Source: Oasisia sp. SBJ-2009 (lineage: Eukaryota > Annelida > Polychaeta > Sabellida > Siboglinidae). Taken from it: a stretch of DNA of 64,000 nt. Of this stretch, positions 1 through 63,445 are shown in pieces. Where the stretch lies: assembly GCA_964017155.1 (NCBI GenBank), contig OZ024865.1, forward strand, positions 38,779,926 through 38,843,925, in the 5' to 3' direction. The translations under genes and the position numbers were made by a program. The notes under the pieces are model-generated. The model saw nothing but the letters and a program-made list of their open reading frames with translations, did not search any database and was not told where the DNA came from. Position 1 is the first letter of the stretch, and every line of letters starts with the position of its first letter.

Positions 1-647
1 CTTTTTCCTGAAATTTGTAAATGCATATACTGTATACATTTTATTTATTTTTGACTGCATGGTGATTTAGATGTAGAAATTAGATTTAGTCAACATAAGA
101 TATTAATGACAAATCAGATCTGAGTACAAATCCTTACTAACTTACTAAAGACTGATCTTCAGGTGATGTAAGACCACAATAAGGTGCTCTTTTGCCATTA
201 CCCGACCAAAGAGTAACCCTATAAAACCAGCATTATGCAGGTTGTCTGAATTTCTGTGAGCACATATGTAGTGTGGAGTGAGTAGAAATTATGTTTTTGT
301 GCACCGTGGAATCAGAGCTGTCAAATTATGACAGCTGTCAGTCGGTGCATTTCTGCGTATTAATACAGTTGTCATTTTGCTTGGTGATATAATCAGGGGC
401 AATCCGTGGGTGGTTCAAGCAGAAATGGAGGGGTGTAAGGTTTGAAAGAAGTTTGTGGGAGCCTGAGGTATGAGAAGTTCACGAATTTTTGATATAACTT
501 GTGTCTATGGAATATGCTGTGAAATCGTCAATAACAGAGCACCGCAATATTAGTAGGTAATGAAGGAAACGTTGTAATGTTCGCCTATGAAAAATGTAAA
601 TGTGGTCTGAGTCCAGGTCTTACATGAGTTGAATTTGAGGGAATAAC
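1..647. other. No gene recognised; possible intron or upstream region of the CCCH gene
   Basis: AT-rich single-copy-looking sequence without a convincing reading frame. Because a good 3' splice-site sequence (pyrimidine-rich, ending in TAG at 668-670) lies just inside the following reading frame, this stretch could be an intron of a gene that starts to the left of the window. Confidence 0.4.
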
Positions 648-1280
648 ATGACACATGATCTGTTCTGTAGAAAAGAACAAGACGGCCGACAGGAGAAACA
701 CGTTGACTACACGAGAGGTTCAACAGACAGCGACGAAGATGACAGCGAAGTCGAGCAGTTGGAGGTTGACACAAAAACAGAACCAGAAGATGACACTGAA
801 ACAGTCGCTCGGCTACCTAACCCACTGGCAGCCGTGTCCTTGCCCAGTGCTACGGGTAATGATGTTTCTTCCGTGTTTGTGAACGCCTTCAAAGTTGCCG
901 AGCAAGCGAAGCACTCGATCCTTGAACAGCACGTGAAAATGACAGCCGAACAGATCAGGGAGAGTCGATTAAAGAAAAAGGTCTGTTACAACTTCCAGAA
1001 AGGGAAGTGTCGGTTTGGTAGCAAGTGTAAGTATTCGCACGGGGACGATCATATCATGGCGAACAGAGCCAGTGGCGAGAACGTAGGAGGTGATGTTGTA
1101 CGACAGGTTCAGCCAGACCAAAACACAAACTTTCCCCCGGAAACGGATGATGATGGGAATGTGATTAAGAGAAAGCGTCGAGCTGGTGTAACAAATAACT
1201 TGCTTCCGACAAAGAAGGCAAGAGCAACACTGGACAAACAAAGGGCACAGGAGAGACCATGGACAATGCATGCCAACTAG
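648..1280 (+). CDS. Small CCCH-type zinc-finger protein (possibly last exon only)
   Basis: A 210-codon frame beginning at ATG 648. It has an acidic N-terminal third (roughly residues 25-50, rich in D, E, S and T), a middle part, then one CCCH zinc finger: Cys113, Cys121, Cys127 and His131 with spacing C-x7-C-x5-C-x3-H, in the context CRFGSKCKYSH. A basic, nuclear-localisation-like segment (KRKRR, about residues 175-179) and a Lys/Arg-rich tail follow. Single CCCH fingers of this kind usually bind RNA; an RNA-processing role in the nucleus is inferred, not shown. The start is uncertain: a 3' splice site could make an exon begin at 671, splitting codon 8, in which case upstream exons lie outside the window. 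A possible ATTAAA polyadenylation signal lies at about 1370. I do not recognise the orthologue. Confidence 0.7.
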   Translation: MTHDLFCRKEQDGRQEKHVDYTRGSTDSDEDDSEVEQLEVDTKTEPEDDTETVARLPNPLAAVSLPSATGNDVSSVFVNAFKVAEQAKHSILEQHVKMTAEQIRESRLKKKVCYNFQKGKCRFGSKCKYSHGDDHIMANRASGENVGGDVVRQVQPDQNTNFPPETDDDGNVIKRKRRAGVTNNLLPTKKARATLDKQRAQERPWTMHAN

Positions 1281-5845: not shown

Positions 5846-30542
<24,697 letters not shown>

Positions 30543-30700: not shown

Positions 30701-30835
30701 CACAGCGTGCGTGCGGGCGCTGCACGACTAAATTCAAAAAAAAGTAAAATAGATGATTATCTTTCGATGTGCCACCAAGGATTCTATAGCTTCACAAAAC
30801 CACCTGATATTAAGCGTGCTAAACTACGATAATGA

Positions 30836-31262
30836 AGGTTCAAATTACAGAGACTGCACCAGCGTGTTAGGACACGATATAGACTGTGTCAATTTTCAAG
30901 AAATGTAAACCCTGTAGGCAAATCGTGTTAATTTATGGCATACATGCTATTTAGGGATATGGAGGGGTGCTGAACTCGAATCTGCTGTATGCCCGGCTAA
31001 AAATGGCTCATAAGCCATGAAAAATCCAAGATGGCCGCCACCGCCGTGCTAAAATTAGTAAATGTTCATATCTTTTTTACTAAGCAAGGTAGAAACATGA
31101 ATGAAGTGTGCTTTTGTATGTTTTCGAATATGAGGAATCCAATGGCAAACTCAGATTTGTGATAAAATACAAAAAAACTGCTTAAAACGCATATTAATTA
31201 CCCAAATAATCATTTAAACAAAGCAAATAAAATAACAATTAAAATAACTATGTCAGGCATGT

Positions 31263-31333
<71 letters not shown>

Positions 31334-34300
31334 GTCCTTGTAGTTACTCATCAACAGAATATTAACAACTTTTTATATTGCAGGTTTGAATTGATGTCGC
31401 CATGGCTGAGGGCACAGACTCCACTAGAAAAAGACCAGTGTCGCTAGAGTCACAATTACAATTGTGCATCGATTGCCAGAATGACAATCAACAGAAACTT
31501 ATGAATGTCAGCCATGATGGCCTCCAGTCAGTTGATAACATCAGACAACTACGAACGAAATTACCTATCGATAACTTTCCAGATGCAACTGATCGACTCA
31601 CCGAAATATTTCAAGCAGATGTCCCTCAAACTTTCTCGTGGCATAAAGACTGTCGGTCAAGTTACATGAGCAAATTGAAAGTTGAACGCTTGAGGAAAGA
31701 TGGATTGAAAGAGATGAATGAACCAATCTCCTCCACATCCATGTAACATGCTCATCATCAAAAGGTCAGTCTACGGAGTGAAACGCCTCACATAGACTGG
31801 AAGCAGTGCATCTTTTGCCAACAAGACAAGAGAGAATCACTTCATCTCATCCAAGAACTGCTAGCCAGCAGCAGGATACTAGACGCATCAAAGTACGATC
31901 AAGTCCTGAGTGTTCGATTAGCATGTGTCAACGATCTCACAGCTGCAGATGGAGCACATCACCGGAGTTGCATGGTCAAGTTTGAGCGACAAACAAAGCA
32001 TATTGCCACAATGTCACCCCAGACCTCAGACGTAGCCTTGCATGGCTTTGTCAAGAGCTGAAGCAATCAGCGGAACAAACTGATATCTTGGATCTTGTAG
32101 ATGTTTCGGACAGATACTGCAAAATTTCCGATGATGCTCAGGCGCAAATTCCACCTTCATTTCTAAGCCGTAGGAACACGTTCAAGGACAAACTAGCTGA
32201 CTGCTTTGAAGGCTTGTACGAGGTCGTTGTACTACACGACAAGGCTCGAAATGAACCCCGTACAGTGCTAGTTCCTTCCAAGTTCCAACATCTTCCAGTA
32301 TCCGCGATGATCAACGATGACGGTGACGTGAAAAGACTCATCCCTACCTTCAAGCATGATGATCAAGACACTTTCCTGACCATGGTTCATGTGACACTTC
32401 AGATCCGTGGTGACATGTTGTCACATCCCAAGCCAATTGGGTTGGACATCAGCACAGACATAGCTATCGATTGCGTACCTGATAGTCTATACATGTTCCT
32501 AAGCCTGTTACTAGGTGGTCAACGTTTACTGGAGAATGATGAACTTGACGATGAGAAACACGAGAACAGACAACGACTCAGAATTATCAGTATTGCTCAG
32601 GACCTCATGTACACAGCTAATGGAGACAAGTTTCTCACTCCGAAGCACATAGGGATGGCTAGCAAATTACACCAAGCAACACGGTCGAAAGAGTTGGTGA
32701 ACATGTTTCACTAGGCAGGTCACGTCATGGGTTACAGGGAGGTTATCAGACTTGACACTGCACTCGCTAAAAATACACTGGAGTCAATGGACAGCAACGG
32801 TGCAGTGATCCCACGAAATCTAGTAAAGGGTCGCTTTGTCCATTTCTCTGCAGACAACGTAGACATCAACGAGTATACCTAGGATGGAAAGGGAACCTTT
32901 CATGCTACACAAGTCACTGCCTGGCAACGCGGGCTACCAGAACGAGATCTCAGAGGAATAAACATTTCCAAGATAGCCACACTGAGGTGATGACTGAGAT
33001 AATACCCGCGCCAAACAGAGGAATCAAGGAGCGTCCATTTGTCGGTGCGATCACAGCTGATCATTTTGCACAAGCCATTGAATACTGCCCATCAGCACTA
33101 AAAGCAGAGGCGACTGACATGCCTTTTGTATTGACCCGGTCTCAACACAAACCAATGCCTTCCTGGACACTTTACAATCAAACAGCTAGCAAAGTCAACC
33201 AAGAGAAGACCACTGTAGGTTACCTACAAGATCCTGCATCTGAACTCGATACATTGGACACAGTCATGAAACGAGTAATCCACGTAGCAGCCAATTCGAT
33301 GGAGCAGCAGCATGTTGTTCTGACTGTGAATGAGGCGCTTTTTCCAAATCTAATGGAGTTGAAGTGGTCGGTAGCAGAATACAAGGACGTACTTATACCC
33401 TGCCTGGGAGGACTTCACATTGCCACGAACTTTCTGGGAGTGATAGGACGACATATGAATCAATCTGGCCTGTGCGAGCTGTGGGTAGAGTGTGATCTTC
33501 TGGGGGCCAATGCTGCACAACATGTCATGGACGGAAAGGGCTATGCACGTGCAATGAGAACGCACAAGCTCACTCTGCAGGCACTGTGGCAACTACTGCT
33601 TCCTCGGTTCTACACGTACTTGGATGACGTTGACGACACACTGAGAGCCGAATTTTCAGATGGGTGCACTTCCATAGATGTGGATAGCATCACACAGATG
33701 GTTGAAACTCTGAGTACTGAAAGATTCCGACAGCCCATGAAAGAGTTTGCTGAGGCACTGGCAGTTGATGATCCAAACGCTGAGTTCTGGTGGCAGTATA
33801 TGACCATGCTGAGCATCCTGCTCTCATTCACCCGAGCACAACATGATGGGTTGTGGAATCTTCACCTGTATTCCTTCAAGCGTATGTTGCCACATTTCTT
33901 CAGGTATGATCATGTCAACTACGCCAGATGGGGTACTGTGTATCTGGCTGAGATGTCGACTCTCCCACCACGTTCCACATCATGCGAGCACACTATCAAG
34001 CAAGTGTCTGGAACAAAGCACACTTACCATGTCCTGATCTTCCGCCTGACACTGAAATGGGATGGATGCACCTGGAGGCAAGCTAGTCCCACGGCTCCTA
34101 TCTCTCCCGCCGATACCGAAAGCATGTAGGGAGATCACCTCATGTGGCTGTACTAATGGATGTCTTACCCAACGCTGCAGCTGTAGGAAAATTCGCATGG
34201 AGTGCATCGAAATGTGTGCTTGTAAGAGACATTCTGACGTCTGTCGAAATATTCACGACGACATGAAAGACCTTGAGGACAGGGATTGAATTCTCACATG

Positions 34301-34968
34301 TAGACTTATCAACCTGACAATGCAGGCTTTAACATTTGAACCACGTGTGATCAAGTTTGGGTGTATGTTGATATTAGTTGTTAAATGTAATGTTTCATAT
34401 CATGAGACCTGTATAACTATATGTATACAAATATATGTATATATCATCATATATGATATGAAGATCACTTCATAAATATTATTTTATGTAATTAAACCAA
34501 GTGGGTTCTTTTTGTTCGTGTGAGTGATAGAAAAATAAAGTTATTTGTTATTACCTGCTTGAGGAATTGTTCATTCTTAAAAATCATATTTGTTTCAACA
34601 ATTTCGATTTATTTGTATTTTGTATTTATTTTATTACATTTCTGAGTTTGCCATTGGATTCCTCATATTAGAAAACATATAAAAGCACACTTCATTCGTG
34701 TTTCGACCATGCTTAGTAAAACAAATATGACCATTTACGAATTTTAGTACGGCGGTGGCGGCCATCTTGGATTTTTCATTTTTTAGGGCTTATGAGCCAT
34801 TTTTGAGCCGGGCATACAGCAGATTCGAGCTCAGCACCCCTCAATGCCCCTAAATAGCATGTATGCCATAAATTAACACGATTTGCCTTCAGCCCTTTAA
34901 ATATGCACATTTTCATGAAATGTGCCTAGTCTAATAGCAAAGGTTCAAATGACAGAGGCTGCACCAGC
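30836..34968. mobile_element. Long-TIR element A carrying the N-terminal half of a large element protein
   Basis: Inverted arms at about 30912-31175 and 34636-34895 share GGCAAATCGTGTTAATTTAT, GCATACATGCTATTTAGG, CTGCTGTATGCCCGGCT, AATCCAAGATGGCCGCCACC, ATGAAGTGTGCTTTT and GAGGAATCCAATGGCAAACT. Weaker inverted similarity continues outward. A 29-bp imperfect direct repeat (two mismatches; AAGGTTCAAAT...CTGCACCAGCG) flanks the whole at 30836-30864 and 34940-34968. About 4 kb. A (TA)n run lies at 31265-31330. The internal frames run on the plus strand. Confidence 0.85.
31402..34289 (+). pseudogene. Element A protein: two zinc modules, transposase-like core, Cys-rich tail; broken
   Basis: Pieces in order. 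31402-31743 starts MAEGTDSTRKRP and has a CIDC...WHKDC module. 31788-32061, in another frame, has a second CIFC...HHRSC module. 32088-32711 runs on past TAG (32712) to a second stop at 32878. 32987-33970 has GLHIATNFLGVIGRHMNQSG, LWVECDLLGAN, YARAMRTHK and HDGLWNLHLYSFKRMLP...NYARWG. A frame change then leads to YQASVWNKAH...DLPPDTEMGW. A last frame, 34062-34289, ends in the Cys-rich CGCTNGCLTQRCSC...CIEMCAC. These landmarks belong to a high-copy protein family I recall from invertebrate genome annotations, usually named only 'uncharacterized'. At least four stops or frameshifts make this copy inactive. The central nuclease-like segment seen in element B is missing. Confidence 0.8.
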
Positions 34969-34970
34969 GG

Positions 34971-35235
34971 TCATATATCGTAATCGTCACATTTCTATAG
35001 CGCTGTTCCAACGTTCGCTGCTCCCAGCGCTGTACAAAATGTTCTTGTAAATAAATAAGTCTTTAATTTTACTTTAAATGCAGCAGTGGTCATAGATGAC
35101 AATGTCAGATGATGCGGTAGTGCATTCCATAGACTTGGGGCTGCCACGCTGAAAGCTCTGTCACCCCAGTGACGCCTTGTCCGTGGCACACACAATAAAC
35201 TGTGTTCGCTGGAGCGCAGCGACCTAACCGGCTGG
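34971..35235 (-). mobile_element. LINE C-terminal fragment
   Basis: Minus-strand frame with RHWGDRAFSVAAPSLWNALP, then FKVKLKTYLF and a stop, the usual end of LINE reverse-transcriptase proteins. A GCGCTATAGAAATGTGACGATTACGATAT tail abuts element A. Confidence 0.85.
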
Positions 35236-35239
35236 CGTC

Positions 35240-36015
35240 GGCTTACACAGTGTCCAATGTAATATACCCCCCTCTCACCCTAACTCACCCCACTCGCCTT
35301 GTAGATAGTGTTTTTAAGCTAGTGTATTATTTTAATTGAGGTTAATTAATGACACAGTACATTCCTGGGTCTATTTCGTAATAAACGCGATAGTTCTGGC
35401 CCCATATTATTAAAGATTTGAGAATTTGTTCAAATTCTTGCTCGAATTGATTGTTCAATTACTCATGTACCTGTTTTGCTTGGTTTGAAGCGGCAGAATT
35501 GCAAGAATTAAGACAATTGGGTTGAAAATGCACATAGTTAGTAAAGTCAAATTCCCATACAAGCATAGATGCATTGAACAATTAAGACAAACAGAATATG
35601 ACTATAACGAGGTACAGAAGATTTATTCACAGAAAGATAACAAGCCCAAAAGTCCCAATTAATAATGTGTACAATTCAAAATGATCGTTACAGTTATCTA
35701 AATATATGTGAGGCAAAGCGCACCCCCGTGTGCACGTTGCCTCACAAAACGAAATTTGACAAATTGTTTATTTCATATTTACCAGTATACGATTCTATAC
35801 TACACTAGTATACGATACTATACTTTCATGTAGCTAATTTGCATAATTGGTTACTTACCGTGTACAGTCGCTAAGTACGCCGAAATCTGTTCACGTTTTT
35901 ACAATAATAATTTATAGACGAAAACTGCTAATTTCTATAGCTTACTTCGAGTTCTGTGTTTCCTGAAATAATTGCCACCAAGATAGTTATGGCGGCATAG
36001 TGCTTTCACACAACG
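35240..36015. other. Intergenic, no gene recognised
   Basis: AT-rich sequence with a duplicated TATACGATTCTATAC/TATACGATACTATAC motif near 35800. No supported frame. Confidence 0.5.
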
Positions 36016-36020
36016 GTAGA

Positions 36021-36661
36021 AAGGGCCGCTAAAACGTATATCTTAAGATTTGGGTGGGGTGCGCTTTGTGGTTTGCGATAGTTTGCAGCGCGCCTACTCA
36101 TGTATTGCGCTCGGTGACGCAACGCTTCTCACGGTGACGTTGTCGGTGAGAACAATTGGACGGGGCAGCCTTGCGGTGCGCTGGCAGGCCCAACTACGTT
36201 GTCAAAATGTGTGCGATGAACTGGAACATTTGCAGCTTTCCGGAAATAACTAAAAACTCATCGATTTCCCTTGCATTACATGCCTTTTATAATTCTGGTT
36301 TCTACTCTATAGCACTGCTTGGTTTTAAATTGTTCTGTTTGAAACAGTATTTTTACAATTGAATTTATTTCTTTATTTCTATTACAACTATTTATCTTAG
36401 CTTTCGAAAGCGATACATCACTCATAGTCACTGCATGCGATTGGGAAAAATTGCATGCAACCAAGAGACAACGTTGGACGGAATATAACCTTTCCTATCC
36501 AAGAGACACGTTGCATGCAACATGAGACGCCGTCTTATGAGACGCTTTTGCATGCGAATTTATATATTTACACGACGCGATTTGGCTGCAACGGGGTCGC
36601 AAACAACCGTGTCTCGATCAATTTGCATGCAACCGCGTTGCATATCGTAAATCGGCCTTAA
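36021..36661. mobile_element. Candidate TIR element with TTGCATGCAA palindromes
   Basis: Imperfect inverted ends: AGGGCCGCTAAAACGTATAT at the left and, inverted, AAGGCCGATTTACGATATGC at the right. Within the last 230 bp the core GCATGC in TTGCATGC(A/G)A context occurs five times. No coding content. Confidence 0.5.
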
Positions 36662-37965
36662 ATATATCTATATCCAGTGAAGTTATTTATTTGATAGAAT
36701 GGCTTTAAAACGTCCGTTATACGTTATATCATATGATACATTAAACATGCGTAACTATAATTATTAATTATGATCTATGCAGATTCATGGATAGTTATTT
36801 CTACAATGGAAGATGTGACACCAAGATCGTGCACACATCGCCGACGTTTTGTCCTTCAAGTGCGACGTGTATTACACAAAGACAAGGGTTGTGGCTTTGT
36901 ATGCCGGAAATAGCTTCTCCGTTCGTGTCGAAAGTGCAGACAGCTATGATAATAAGGAGGTGGCAACTTGCTAACCACTCATGTACAAATGCATGTAGAA
37001 CCACCTAACGTCAATCTTGCCAAAAGTACCTTCAACCTAACCCTCACGCTAACCTAAACCTTATTCCAGATAAGAACAACCAAAAATGGGCATCTGTACG
37101 TGAGATAGCATGCCTTATCTGATTAATAAAACGAGTCCGCCAGATGGAGACTTTGTCAGACTTAGCCGGTAGGACGTCACATCTATACTTTTGTTGTGTG
37201 AAGTGTACACACAAATCGTACCAAATACTACGCATTGAAATACTCTCAGTAACCTGAGTGTTGTTCCAGTCGCCACTAAGAACCGAATATAGGTTCTACT
37301 ACGTCAACGCAGTATAAGAGGACATATACGACGTTGCTGCAAACTCCGGAGGGGGGGGGGGGCACATGGGCCATATTGGGGCAGGGAAAGAATGTTCACC
37401 AATGTGTACGGAAGGGGTGACAACTTATAGTGTAATTGTTTTTGTTTTTTAAGTGGAACTGGTGATATGATTAGCTGAAATTTAGGTTTTTGGAGAGTAA
37501 AAATATTTATAAAAAAACTCTGACCGTCGCAAAATATGTTTTCAATAGGGCCTGTAACTGGGTCACGATACATGGTGAGACTCAGCGCGACTGGAACCGA
37601 TTGTGGACTGGACACATGAATAATGTTCTAACGATGGATGACAGTTGTAACTTCCGACTGATGAATACTAGGAAAATCAGGTCATAAATATCTTGTGTTA
37701 TATCTTTCTTATTTAAAATGTCCGATTTAATATTGACTTTACCACATTATCATAGACATAAAAATTATACCGATTTACGTAGTGCAGATAATAGACACAC
37801 TTTTAGACCGTATGTGTCTTCGTCACTGCCATGGTGCATGTCGTCCTCCATGGTTCTTTTACTTCTCAAACTCAGAACGGATTCTCTGCTATTTCATTTT
37901 ATATTTCGGAACTCCTGATTTACTAGCAGGTAGGGTGTCAGCTACCCCCTGTTCCTGCGCCAATG
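36662..37965. other. Intergenic, no gene recognised
   Basis: Holds a run of about 14 G at 37350 and no supported gene. Confidence 0.5.
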
Positions 37966-38589
37966 GTCTATAGTGGGGCGGATATGTGGACAATATCAGA
38001 GGGATTGTGGGTTTGGTGGTAAAAGCACCAACATTGGCATAGTTGATGTTAAAGAGGTATTAAGCGATTTTAGATATAGTGCCAAGCTCAATTTTCCCCT
38101 GGTGTCCATACAATTACCAAATCCAAGATGGCCACCAATCGAAGTTTGAAAATTTAGAAAAGGCTTTATCTTCATTAATAATTGACATAAAAAGATGAAT
38201 GAAGTGTCTATTTCTATGTTTTCAGGTATGGGGATTCCAACGGAACCATCATTTGAATGGTAAAATGTAAAACAATTAACATTTACAAGACATTTGTGTA
38301 AAATATGATCGTAAAAAGGCAAAACGACAAGAAAATTTGGGTGCAATAAATTGATTTTGTTTTAATTGCCAATCATGTTGGTACAATAGCATGGAATCAT
38401 ATTTTCAACTGTTCATACATATTTATATTGAACATAATTCAAAACGTTAGCATCGATATTCAATAATGATAATTGCTGTCATTGTATACAGCTTGACAAG
38501 ATGAAACAAAAATAAATAAATAAAAGTTGAACATGAGACTGGACTTATCACTTTGGCAAAAAAGCAACAATACAAAATAACACAAATAT

Positions 38590-39222
38590 ACAACTGAGTG
38601 ACATAATTAATACTGCCATCACTCCTGTATTATTACAACATTATCCAATTGAAGCCTTCACACTTTACACAATGCCATACAATGACTGACAAACTGATAT
38701 AAAATGGACTAGAAACATTAACAAACAAATTTGCTAATTCCAAACGCATACATTTGTGAACAAAAACAATAAATCTGATAGACACTGAACTGCTGCTCGA
38801 CATCACATCTTAATAGTGATCACTGTGTTCACAGTTGCCGAATACGCAAGTGCTGCTAGACATCCCATCTTAAACAAAATGGTGAACATACACAGACTCG
38901 ACTCACTGCTAAAAGCCACCAATACAAATATAAAAAACCTAACATATATATAATATACAACTGAGTGACATAATTAATACTACACAAAGTACCATCATTC
39001 GTGTATGATTACTATGTTATCTAATTGAAGCCTTCACAGTTGGCAAATGTGATACAATGGCAGATATATCGATGTAAAATGGACTAGAAACATTAACAAA
39101 ACAATTTGGTAATTCCAAACACATACAGTTCTGAACAAAAGAATAACTCTGATAGACACTGAACAGCTGCTAGACAGTAGACATCACATCTTAATAGTGA
39201 TCACTGTGTTCACAGTTGCCAC
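38590..39222. repeat. Internal direct duplication in element B
   Basis: 38590-38850 and 38955-39222 share GAGTGACATAATTAATACT, AAAATGGACTAGAAACATTA and CATCTTAATAGTGATCACTG. The second unit contains the end of the coding region (stop near 39193), so the duplication copied the coding end and 3' UTR. Confidence 0.85.
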
Positions 39223-41275
39223 AGCAGTGGCACAGTGACGTGCACTTCAGATTAGCTTTAACATAATATTTGCACAGCCCTCTGCATCCCTTCTTACAGC
39301 CGCATCTTAACAACTCTGAGCAGGACACGGCCGCTTCTGGGAGTAACGTCCACATCGGTTCCCATCCTCGCGTCGGATTCTTGCTCCATCCCCAGGACTC
39401 TGGAGAAGGAAGATCTGGATCTCGGACCTGGGCCTGACCCCATACACGGCCACCCTGGTATGTTGCTCGTCTTGCATGCTGCAGCAGTGCAGCTCTGGTT
39501 GGTGGAATGGCGTCGATAGGTCTGGCTTTTAACGTGAACATGTGCTTCCTGGCTGAGTCCACAGTAGTTTCGTCACTCCCCATACATAAGCACCACGTAT
39601 GACTCGAGTACAGACATGCAGACATTGTCCAAACTTGTCGGTCGTGTGACAAGTCTAGCGAAGATTTCCGTTGCAGCATTGAATGACCTCCACGTGTCAA
39701 AGGCTGACTTTTTGCCTTTCCCAGCAAACGACGAGACTGTGTCACAACCGGTGAAGGCGTGGAACATGTGAAGAGCTTGTGCTTTCTCTGCACCCAAAGA
39801 GGTGGCAATTTCATGAGCTGGTATGTACCTCATGTGTTTATCCGTTCCAAACGCTTTGCACAGCTGTGTGTTCTCCATTGACACAACAGTGGAGACAGCC
39901 AGGACGGCAACGTCTGTATCTACTGTTGCCGATGACCTTTTTCGGCCGCATCCTTAGCGTGCAGGAACATGCGCGTATCCGCTTCTTCGTGAGAGCATGG
40001 TGCCAAGGCCGAGACATCTTGATGGACACGTGAGCACAGCGCATGCTTCCCACAGGTTGAGAAGACTTCTTTCTCTGTAGACAGATTTTCCACGACTTCA
40101 TGTGCTAGGAAGTTGAATAGTTCTGTCTTGTTCTCGTCCACTCGCAGGAACTCCAGCCAGTTTCCCGGGATGGGGTTGGCTGCTGCAACACGTCGTCTGA
40201 CGCCCTTTCCACGATTTTCTCTTGCTGTGGACTTCAGGCTATCTTGTGTGTAGACATCCCAGATGATGTCCACCCTTGTGACTCTAGCCAACTGTGCTTT
40301 GTTGTATGGCAGGAACACTAACATGGCATAGTCTTGGAAGGTTTTCGCTCCAACTGGCTTCAGCATGTTGATGATAGCAGCTCCATCCAGTATGATGACG
40401 TCGATGACTGGAGCTTCGCCTTTGGATGTGCACAGCTTCTCCAGGCAATCTGTGAGATCTGCCTTTGTACCGAACCGCAATTTTCCCAGTTGCGACAAGG
40501 ATGGTGGGTATGCATGATTTTCATGCTTGAAGAAATTGTCCAAGTCTCCGTCTCGAGTCTGGCACGCGATGTACAGCCTGGAAAATAGTGCACAGTCGCT
40601 CTTGAGGGATGTTATCATGTGTGTAGCTTTGGATGATTTCCTTTTGGATGGACTGTTGAACAGTGGCATACTGTTCTTAGAGATGGTGTCTGATACAGGT
40701 GATGTACACTCAACCAACCGATCCGTTACAAAGCTGTCATACTGATCATGCCCATTCTTCTCTATCCCTCGCACAGATCTGCGATGTCTCTGGTATCCAA
40801 AACCAGAAGATCTCCACTCTCCAGACTTGTAGGGCCTATAGCCATTGTGTGTTCGTGGTGCCTGCCGTTGTCCCTGCCAGTGTGGTTATCCAGGCATGCT
40901 GTTTCAAAGCCGTCGATGGTCCTCGCAATTTCTGGTCCAGCTACCATCCATCGCAGTAGAGCTCTAAGGTTTTGCGTCAAGCCGATGGCTCCACCATCAC
41001 CTTTGACGACTGCGTTGTTTTGCTCATGCGCGTGGTCGATAGCTATGGCTGAGAAGGGACGGGTCGACTTGTGCACTACGAAGCTGCCTCGGTCAAACTA
41101 TTTCGCTACATCAGGGAGTCTTTCGTGCAGTGTTGTCATATCACGTATATGTACCAGAACCCAGCGAGAATAGTGTGTGTGGTTCAGGGCAAAAGAACCA
41201 TGGAGCTAGTGCTCTCAATGCAGTGATGTAGAGTGGGAAGTTTCCTTCACGAATTGATCGCACAAAGACCAGCAT
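39191..41275 (-). pseudogene. Element B protein: FEN1/XPG-like nuclease part plus Cys-rich tail; broken
   Basis: In order on the minus strand. 41275-41098 has a HYSRW module matching NYARW in element A, with a frameshift near 41192 and a stop at 41100-41098. Next come RPFSAIAIDHAHEQNNAVVK and GDGGAIGLTQN (to 40762), then a frame change and RDGDLDNFFKHENHAYPPSL, VIILDGAAIINML, FQDYAMLVFLP and SHEEADTRMFLHA. A frameshift near 39921 leads to VDTDVAVLAV and FHAFTGCDTVSSF, and another near 39575 to ARPIDAIPPTRAALLQHARR, ATYQGGRVW and a Cys-rich CGCKKGCRGLCKYY tail. The acidic positions (LDG, EEAD, DTD, GCDT) have the order of FEN1/XPG-type active-site acids, so a structure-specific nuclease fold is inferred. 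Multiple lesions make it inactive. It has no N-terminal zinc modules. Confidence 0.8.
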
Positions 41276-41603
41276 AAGACATTCGAAGTGCACCCATTTT
41301 AACATCAATATCATCATAATAAAAATTATGAATTTAAATGCATTGTATCGAAAATAGGTGGTGGCATTTGATTCCTTATGTCAGAAAACATACACAACGA
41401 CACTTCATTCATGTTTATACGATATTTATTCAGGAAGATATGACGATAATTAGAATTTCGCGACTCGGATGGCGGCCATCTTGGATTTTTCAAATTTTAG
41501 GGCCCCATGGGGAAAATTTACCTTCTTAGCATCAACTATGCCAATTTTGGTGCTTTTACCACCAAACCCACAATCAAATCACATATCTGCCCCAATACTA
41601 AGC

Positions 41604-58727: not shown

Positions 58728-63445
<4,718 letters not shown>

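Follow-up and report, generated by a model that had tools for sequence, protein, structure and literature searches.

Two dead transposons of probable AcademX type in Oasisia carry different parts of one transposase–nuclease protein type

In a 64,000-nucleotide stretch of the genome of the annelid Oasisia sp. SBJ-2009 (the window; contig OZ024865.1, positions 38,779,926 to 38,843,925), two neighbouring elements with long terminal inverted repeats (TIRs) encode what look like complementary halves of one large protein, which raises the question of what this protein is and what kind of element carried it. We are fairly confident that the two elements, A and B, are dead, internally deleted cut-and-paste transposons of the AcademX type, derived from two old lineages. 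Both have long TIRs and 3-bp target site duplications (TSDs), and the protein therefore belongs to a DNA transposon, as a preliminary description of the locus had suggested.

Element A is delimited by an outward alignment of its two arms, which ends at TAGACT and leaves ATA on either flank. Its features, in window coordinates, are as follows.

30880-34933, plus strand: element A, a non-autonomous, internally deleted AcademX-like transposon of 4,054 bp (TIR alignment, 3-bp TSD)
30877-30879: left TSD, ATA (flank comparison)
34934-34936: right TSD, ATA (flank comparison)
30880-31177, plus strand: left TIR, starting TAGACT (arm alignment)
34619-34933, minus strand: right TIR (arm alignment)
30835-30864, plus strand: left copy of a direct repeat outside A that predates the insertion (partner at 34940-34969)
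31402-34289, plus strand: transposase pseudogene with two C2HC zinc modules, the first part of a DDE core and a CXC-like tail
33971-33973, plus strand: deletion junction, joining residue ~860 to residue ~1441 of the relative P0001 (comparison with P0001)

The arms are 89% identical over 274 columns. Position 30836, where the element had been thought to begin, falls in the 30-bp direct repeat outside A, and the end of A lies at 30880. The two copies of that repeat are identical at 28/30 positions, and we considered whether they might be a long target duplication; this was rejected, because both copies fall beyond the 3-bp TSD and together re-create a tandem period. Specifically, joining the flanks with a single ATA places the repeats 48 bp from each other, and this period then holds at 32/50 positions (next best, 19, among periods of 40-59). 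A thus landed inside a small tandem repeat. Just beyond A, a 94-amino-acid open frame on the minus strand (34995-35279) contains GDRAFSVAAPSLWNALP, which we take to be typical of the end of a long interspersed nuclear element (LINE) reverse transcriptase.

The read-through translation of A, 957 amino acids in length, contains all the modules first described for it, in the order two C-x2-C...H-x2-C zinc modules, a GLHIATNFLG...LWVECDLLG core, NYARW, a YQ..VW...GW linker and a Cys-rich tail. Its best relative is P0001, a protein of 1,539 amino acids that is 72% identical across 99% of the query region. Residues equivalent to about 861-1441 of P0001 are missing from A, and the match resumes from about 1441 (the junction is placed to about one residue), in agreement with the proposal that A is an internally deleted copy. 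The pseudogene also has three in-frame stops, at 31744, 32712 and 32880, and several frameshifts. A keeps the first catalytic Asp, has Asn in place of the second, and lacks the last Glu and the nuclease.

The arms of element B were aligned in the same way and end at TAGTGGGG and TATTGGGG, with CTA on both flanks; they are 67% identical over 222 columns.

37971-41597, minus strand: element B, a non-autonomous AcademX-like transposon of 3,627 bp whose gene lacks its 5' half (TIR alignment, 3-bp TSD)
37968-37970: left TSD, CTA (flank comparison)
41598-41600: right TSD, CTA (flank comparison)
37971-38275, plus strand: TIR downstream of the gene, starting TAGTGGGG (arm alignment)
41330-41597, minus strand: TIR upstream of the gene, starting TATTGGGG (arm alignment)
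39192-41320, minus strand: transposase pseudogene with the end of the DDE core including the catalytic Glu, the whole FEN1/XPG-like nuclease, the linker and the Cys-rich tail

The read-through translation of B (701 amino acids) covers the HYSRW region, DHAHEQNN, the nuclease motifs and the tail, in the order previously noted, and aligns to residues 808-1524 of P0001 at about 30% identity. The 5' half of the gene is indeed gone, including the second Asp and everything before it; the Glu and the checked nuclease residues are kept. Several frameshifts and one in-frame stop break the frame. The coding sequences of A and B overlap at both ends of the A deletion, and to judge from their sequences both elements are dead, neither being able to make an active enzyme. 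The 3' part of B also contains a tandem duplication of about 270 bp (38585-38839 and 38952-39220, 82% identical) that includes the end of the gene.

Do the two halves belong to one protein? Residues 210-900 of A, used as a query against about 5.8 billion proteins, retrieved 57 relatives among 7,615 candidates. Twenty-five of them have at least 1,300 amino acids, and all 25, although found with A, also match B, at about 22-32% identity. The two halves are therefore parts of one protein of ~1,530 amino acids, as had been proposed, and the alternative that they represent two separate genes is rejected. A follow-up alignment search, with candidates limited to 7,997, gave at least 62 proteins, 40 of them new, and a search with B, with candidates limited to 7,996, gave at least 589 relatives; the best of the 120 listed, P0098, is 73% identical. 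Among the 120 B-type relatives listed, which include P0106 and P0130, 45 start near the equivalent of P0001 540-599; the shared start suggests, from sequence, that genes of the B lineage have an intron boundary there or are split over two reading frames. Named sources of the relatives include corals, sea anemone, sea cucumber, fish, hagfish, molluscs, sponge, tunicate and stick insect, and apart from stray labels the proteins are named only hypothetical, uncharacterized or CXC-domain. P0071 and P0151 are labelled as coming from a bacterial metagenome-assembled genome, Sedimenticola sp.; the sequences probably come from an animal host whose DNA was binned together with that of the bacterium.

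The A-type relatives have, in order, two C2HC zinc modules, a DDE core, a nuclease and a Cys-rich, CXC-like tail. For the core, the predicted structure is an RNase-H (DDE) transposase fold that most resembles the P element and Hermes transposases, with the P element as best match and with an all-helical insertion ahead of the last Glu. The region described as FEN1/XPG-like is likewise predicted to have a FEN1/EXO1-like structure, with very weak sequence similarity to FEN1, EXO1 and XPG; unlike those nucleases, it is fused to a transposase. The candidate catalytic residues show little or no variation across 44 relatives. Specifically, the D/D/E triad is invariant, with the second Asp at 646 and the last Glu at 889 of P0001, and the putative nuclease has the metal-binding acidic residues of the FEN1/XPG superfamily.

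Pfam scans of 12 relatives (E limit 0.5 for the first six and 0.1 for the further six) gave DUF6589 (PF20231), a weak TCR match or nothing, and no named transposase family. DUF6589 matched four of the first six, with one match above the cut-off (P0036, 41.9 vs 27 bits, E 6.9e-11), and five of the second six, again with one above it (P0080, 32.6 bits); P0001 and P0142 gave no match. Projected onto P0001, the matches of five relatives cover about 659-934 (P0036), 663-896, 663-933, 665-934 and 601-898 (P0080), that is, the second half of the core, from around the second Asp to past the last Glu. The family is given as of unknown function in the Pfam listing, and a limited literature search found no paper using the term. 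Because it matches the second half of the modelled core, DUF6589 is probably part of this DDE transposase core.

A and B had been regarded as copies of related elements. They do encode the same type of protein, but they are not closely related: in the two stretches where they overlap, the proteins are identical at 16/49 and 31/81 positions (33% and 38%), and their coding DNA gives no alignment of 45 bp or more. In a quick tree of 31 rows, B (covering 44% of the columns) groups with 10 relatives from the B search, and eight A-type relatives fall in another clade, A being represented there by P0001; both groupings have a support of 100, and the branch to the B-type clade measures 2.61 changes per column. 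The two accordingly belong to deeply separate, old lineages, and the candidate reading that they are halves of the same element is rejected on the separation of their relatives.

Set against this distance, the inner parts of the TIRs are oddly alike, at 75.5% over 143 columns, 75.8% over 132, 71% over 160 and 68% over 125 in the four arm pairs.

31018-31177, 34619-34779, 38119-38275 and 41362-41503: inner TIR stretch common to A and B (arm alignment)
31022-31039 (plus, left arm of A), 34757-34774 (minus), 38119-38136 (plus) and 41471-41488 (minus): conserved block AAATCCAAGATGGCCRCC
31099-31125 (plus, left arm of A), 34671-34697 (minus), 38197-38223 (plus) and 41384-41410 (minus): conserved block GAATGAAGTGTNNNTNTNTATGTTTTC

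With patterns derived from these four arms, neither block has an extra copy in the window at up to three mismatches (0.03 expected by chance for AAATCCAAGATGGCCRCC and 0.00 for GAATGAAGTGTNNNTNTNTATGTTTTC). The motif CCAAGATGGCCGCC in one of the two blocks resembles a YY1 site.

This likeness would be explained if the stretch is constrained as a putative binding or promoter site, or if the lineages have exchanged it. Under exchange, B would be a chimera that acquired its inner inverted repeats as copies of those in an A-type element. The similarity of the repeats, beside such divergent proteins, coding DNA that gives no alignment of 45 bp or more and separate clades of relatives, speaks for such a chimera; yet the shared block stands in both arms of B, so both would need to have been replaced, and shared constraint suffices without any exchange. 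We consider a chimera possible but doubtful. Equally tentatively, the inner half of the TIR may be a module that AcademX lineages share even though their proteins have diverged to about a third identity, serving all of them for recognition or as a promoter and so allowing cross-mobilization, or else passed between them as an exchanged part. The protein may be a P/RAG-like transposase that has its own flap nuclease built in; if so, that nuclease would do the second-strand processing done elsewhere by hairpin or staggered cuts.

Which superfamily, then, do two old lineages of such transposons represent? AcademX elements have long TIRs and encode a transposase and an XPG-type nuclease in one protein, so that the arrangement of transposase and flap nuclease is already known from this lineage. 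The relatives of A and B have both enzymes in one protein, a core with the DDE fold and an invariant triad, and A and B, broken as they are, retain long TIRs. P element and hAT superfamily transposons, in contrast, have TSDs of 8 bp, not the 3 bp of A and B, and although the folds predicted here are similar to those of P element and hAT (Hermes) transposases, no fused nuclease is known in either superfamily. AcademX is described as having a nuclease and a TSD of 3-4 bp (Kojima 2020 as cited in PMC10045372), and AcademH as having a helicase and a TSD of 9-10 bp, a difference that seems tied to which of the two enzymes is carried (PMC10045372). The TSD is 3 bp in 2/2 elements here, one copy each, and no helicase family appeared in the Pfam scans of the 12 relatives; thus A and B share the superfamily name with AcademH and not these features. 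In addition, a survey that reports many Academ elements in bivalves gives a mean length of 5,565 bp for the curated ones (PMC10294476), close to the size needed for a gene of 1,530 amino acids plus long TIRs. No difference from AcademX was found in these two broken copies, and the suggestion that Academ is the best candidate relative is supported, the placement being by described traits.

That manner of placement leaves some room, though little, for a separate, unnamed DDE superfamily that gained its FEN1/XPG nuclease independently of Academ. The P element as best fold match and the lack of a named transposase in the scans fit such a superfamily. However, a nuclease and transposase in one protein together with a 3-bp TSD both fit AcademX, and the same pair of traits arising independently is less simple. 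A reading of the frames as host genes or domesticated copies lying between repeats by chance, which the uninformative names of relatives in corals, sea cucumber, fish, molluscs and others might invite, is highly improbable and already contradicted, since both copies are broken, each has TIRs of its own type on both sides plus TSDs, and the empty site of A restores the 48-bp-period repeat.

If A and B are AcademX-type transposons, an intact copy would encode a single protein of ~1,530 amino acids between long inverted repeats. Its zinc modules and tail may bind the ends of the transposon, while cutting and joining of the 3' strands, staggered by 3 bp, may fall to the DDE core. The flap nuclease fused to that core may cut or trim the 5' strand where the element ends, or else the flaps remaining after joining. 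A and B would be mobile only through the protein of intact copies elsewhere.

The window has further features outside the two elements.

24229-25806, minus strand: open frame of 525 amino acids with a Cys-rich end, matching Pfam DDE_Tnp_1_7 (E 3.1e-71), which we take to be a piggyBac-type transposase family
23560-23631, plus strand, and 63213-63284, minus strand: tRNA-like sequences with an identical odd four-base anticodon call (ctcg), only 63213-63284 reaching the Rfam tRNA threshold; possibly tRNA-derived short interspersed nuclear elements
639-1280, plus strand: frame of 213 amino acids that contains a CCCH zinc finger (E 4.5e-7) and may be a host gene exon

Our analysis suggests that DUF6589 functions within the core of a DNA-transposon transposase, and it suggests the same function for many animal proteins now named hypothetical, uncharacterized or CXC-domain. 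Furthermore, the predicted structure of a transposase–flap nuclease fusion makes the cutting of the second strand a testable question.
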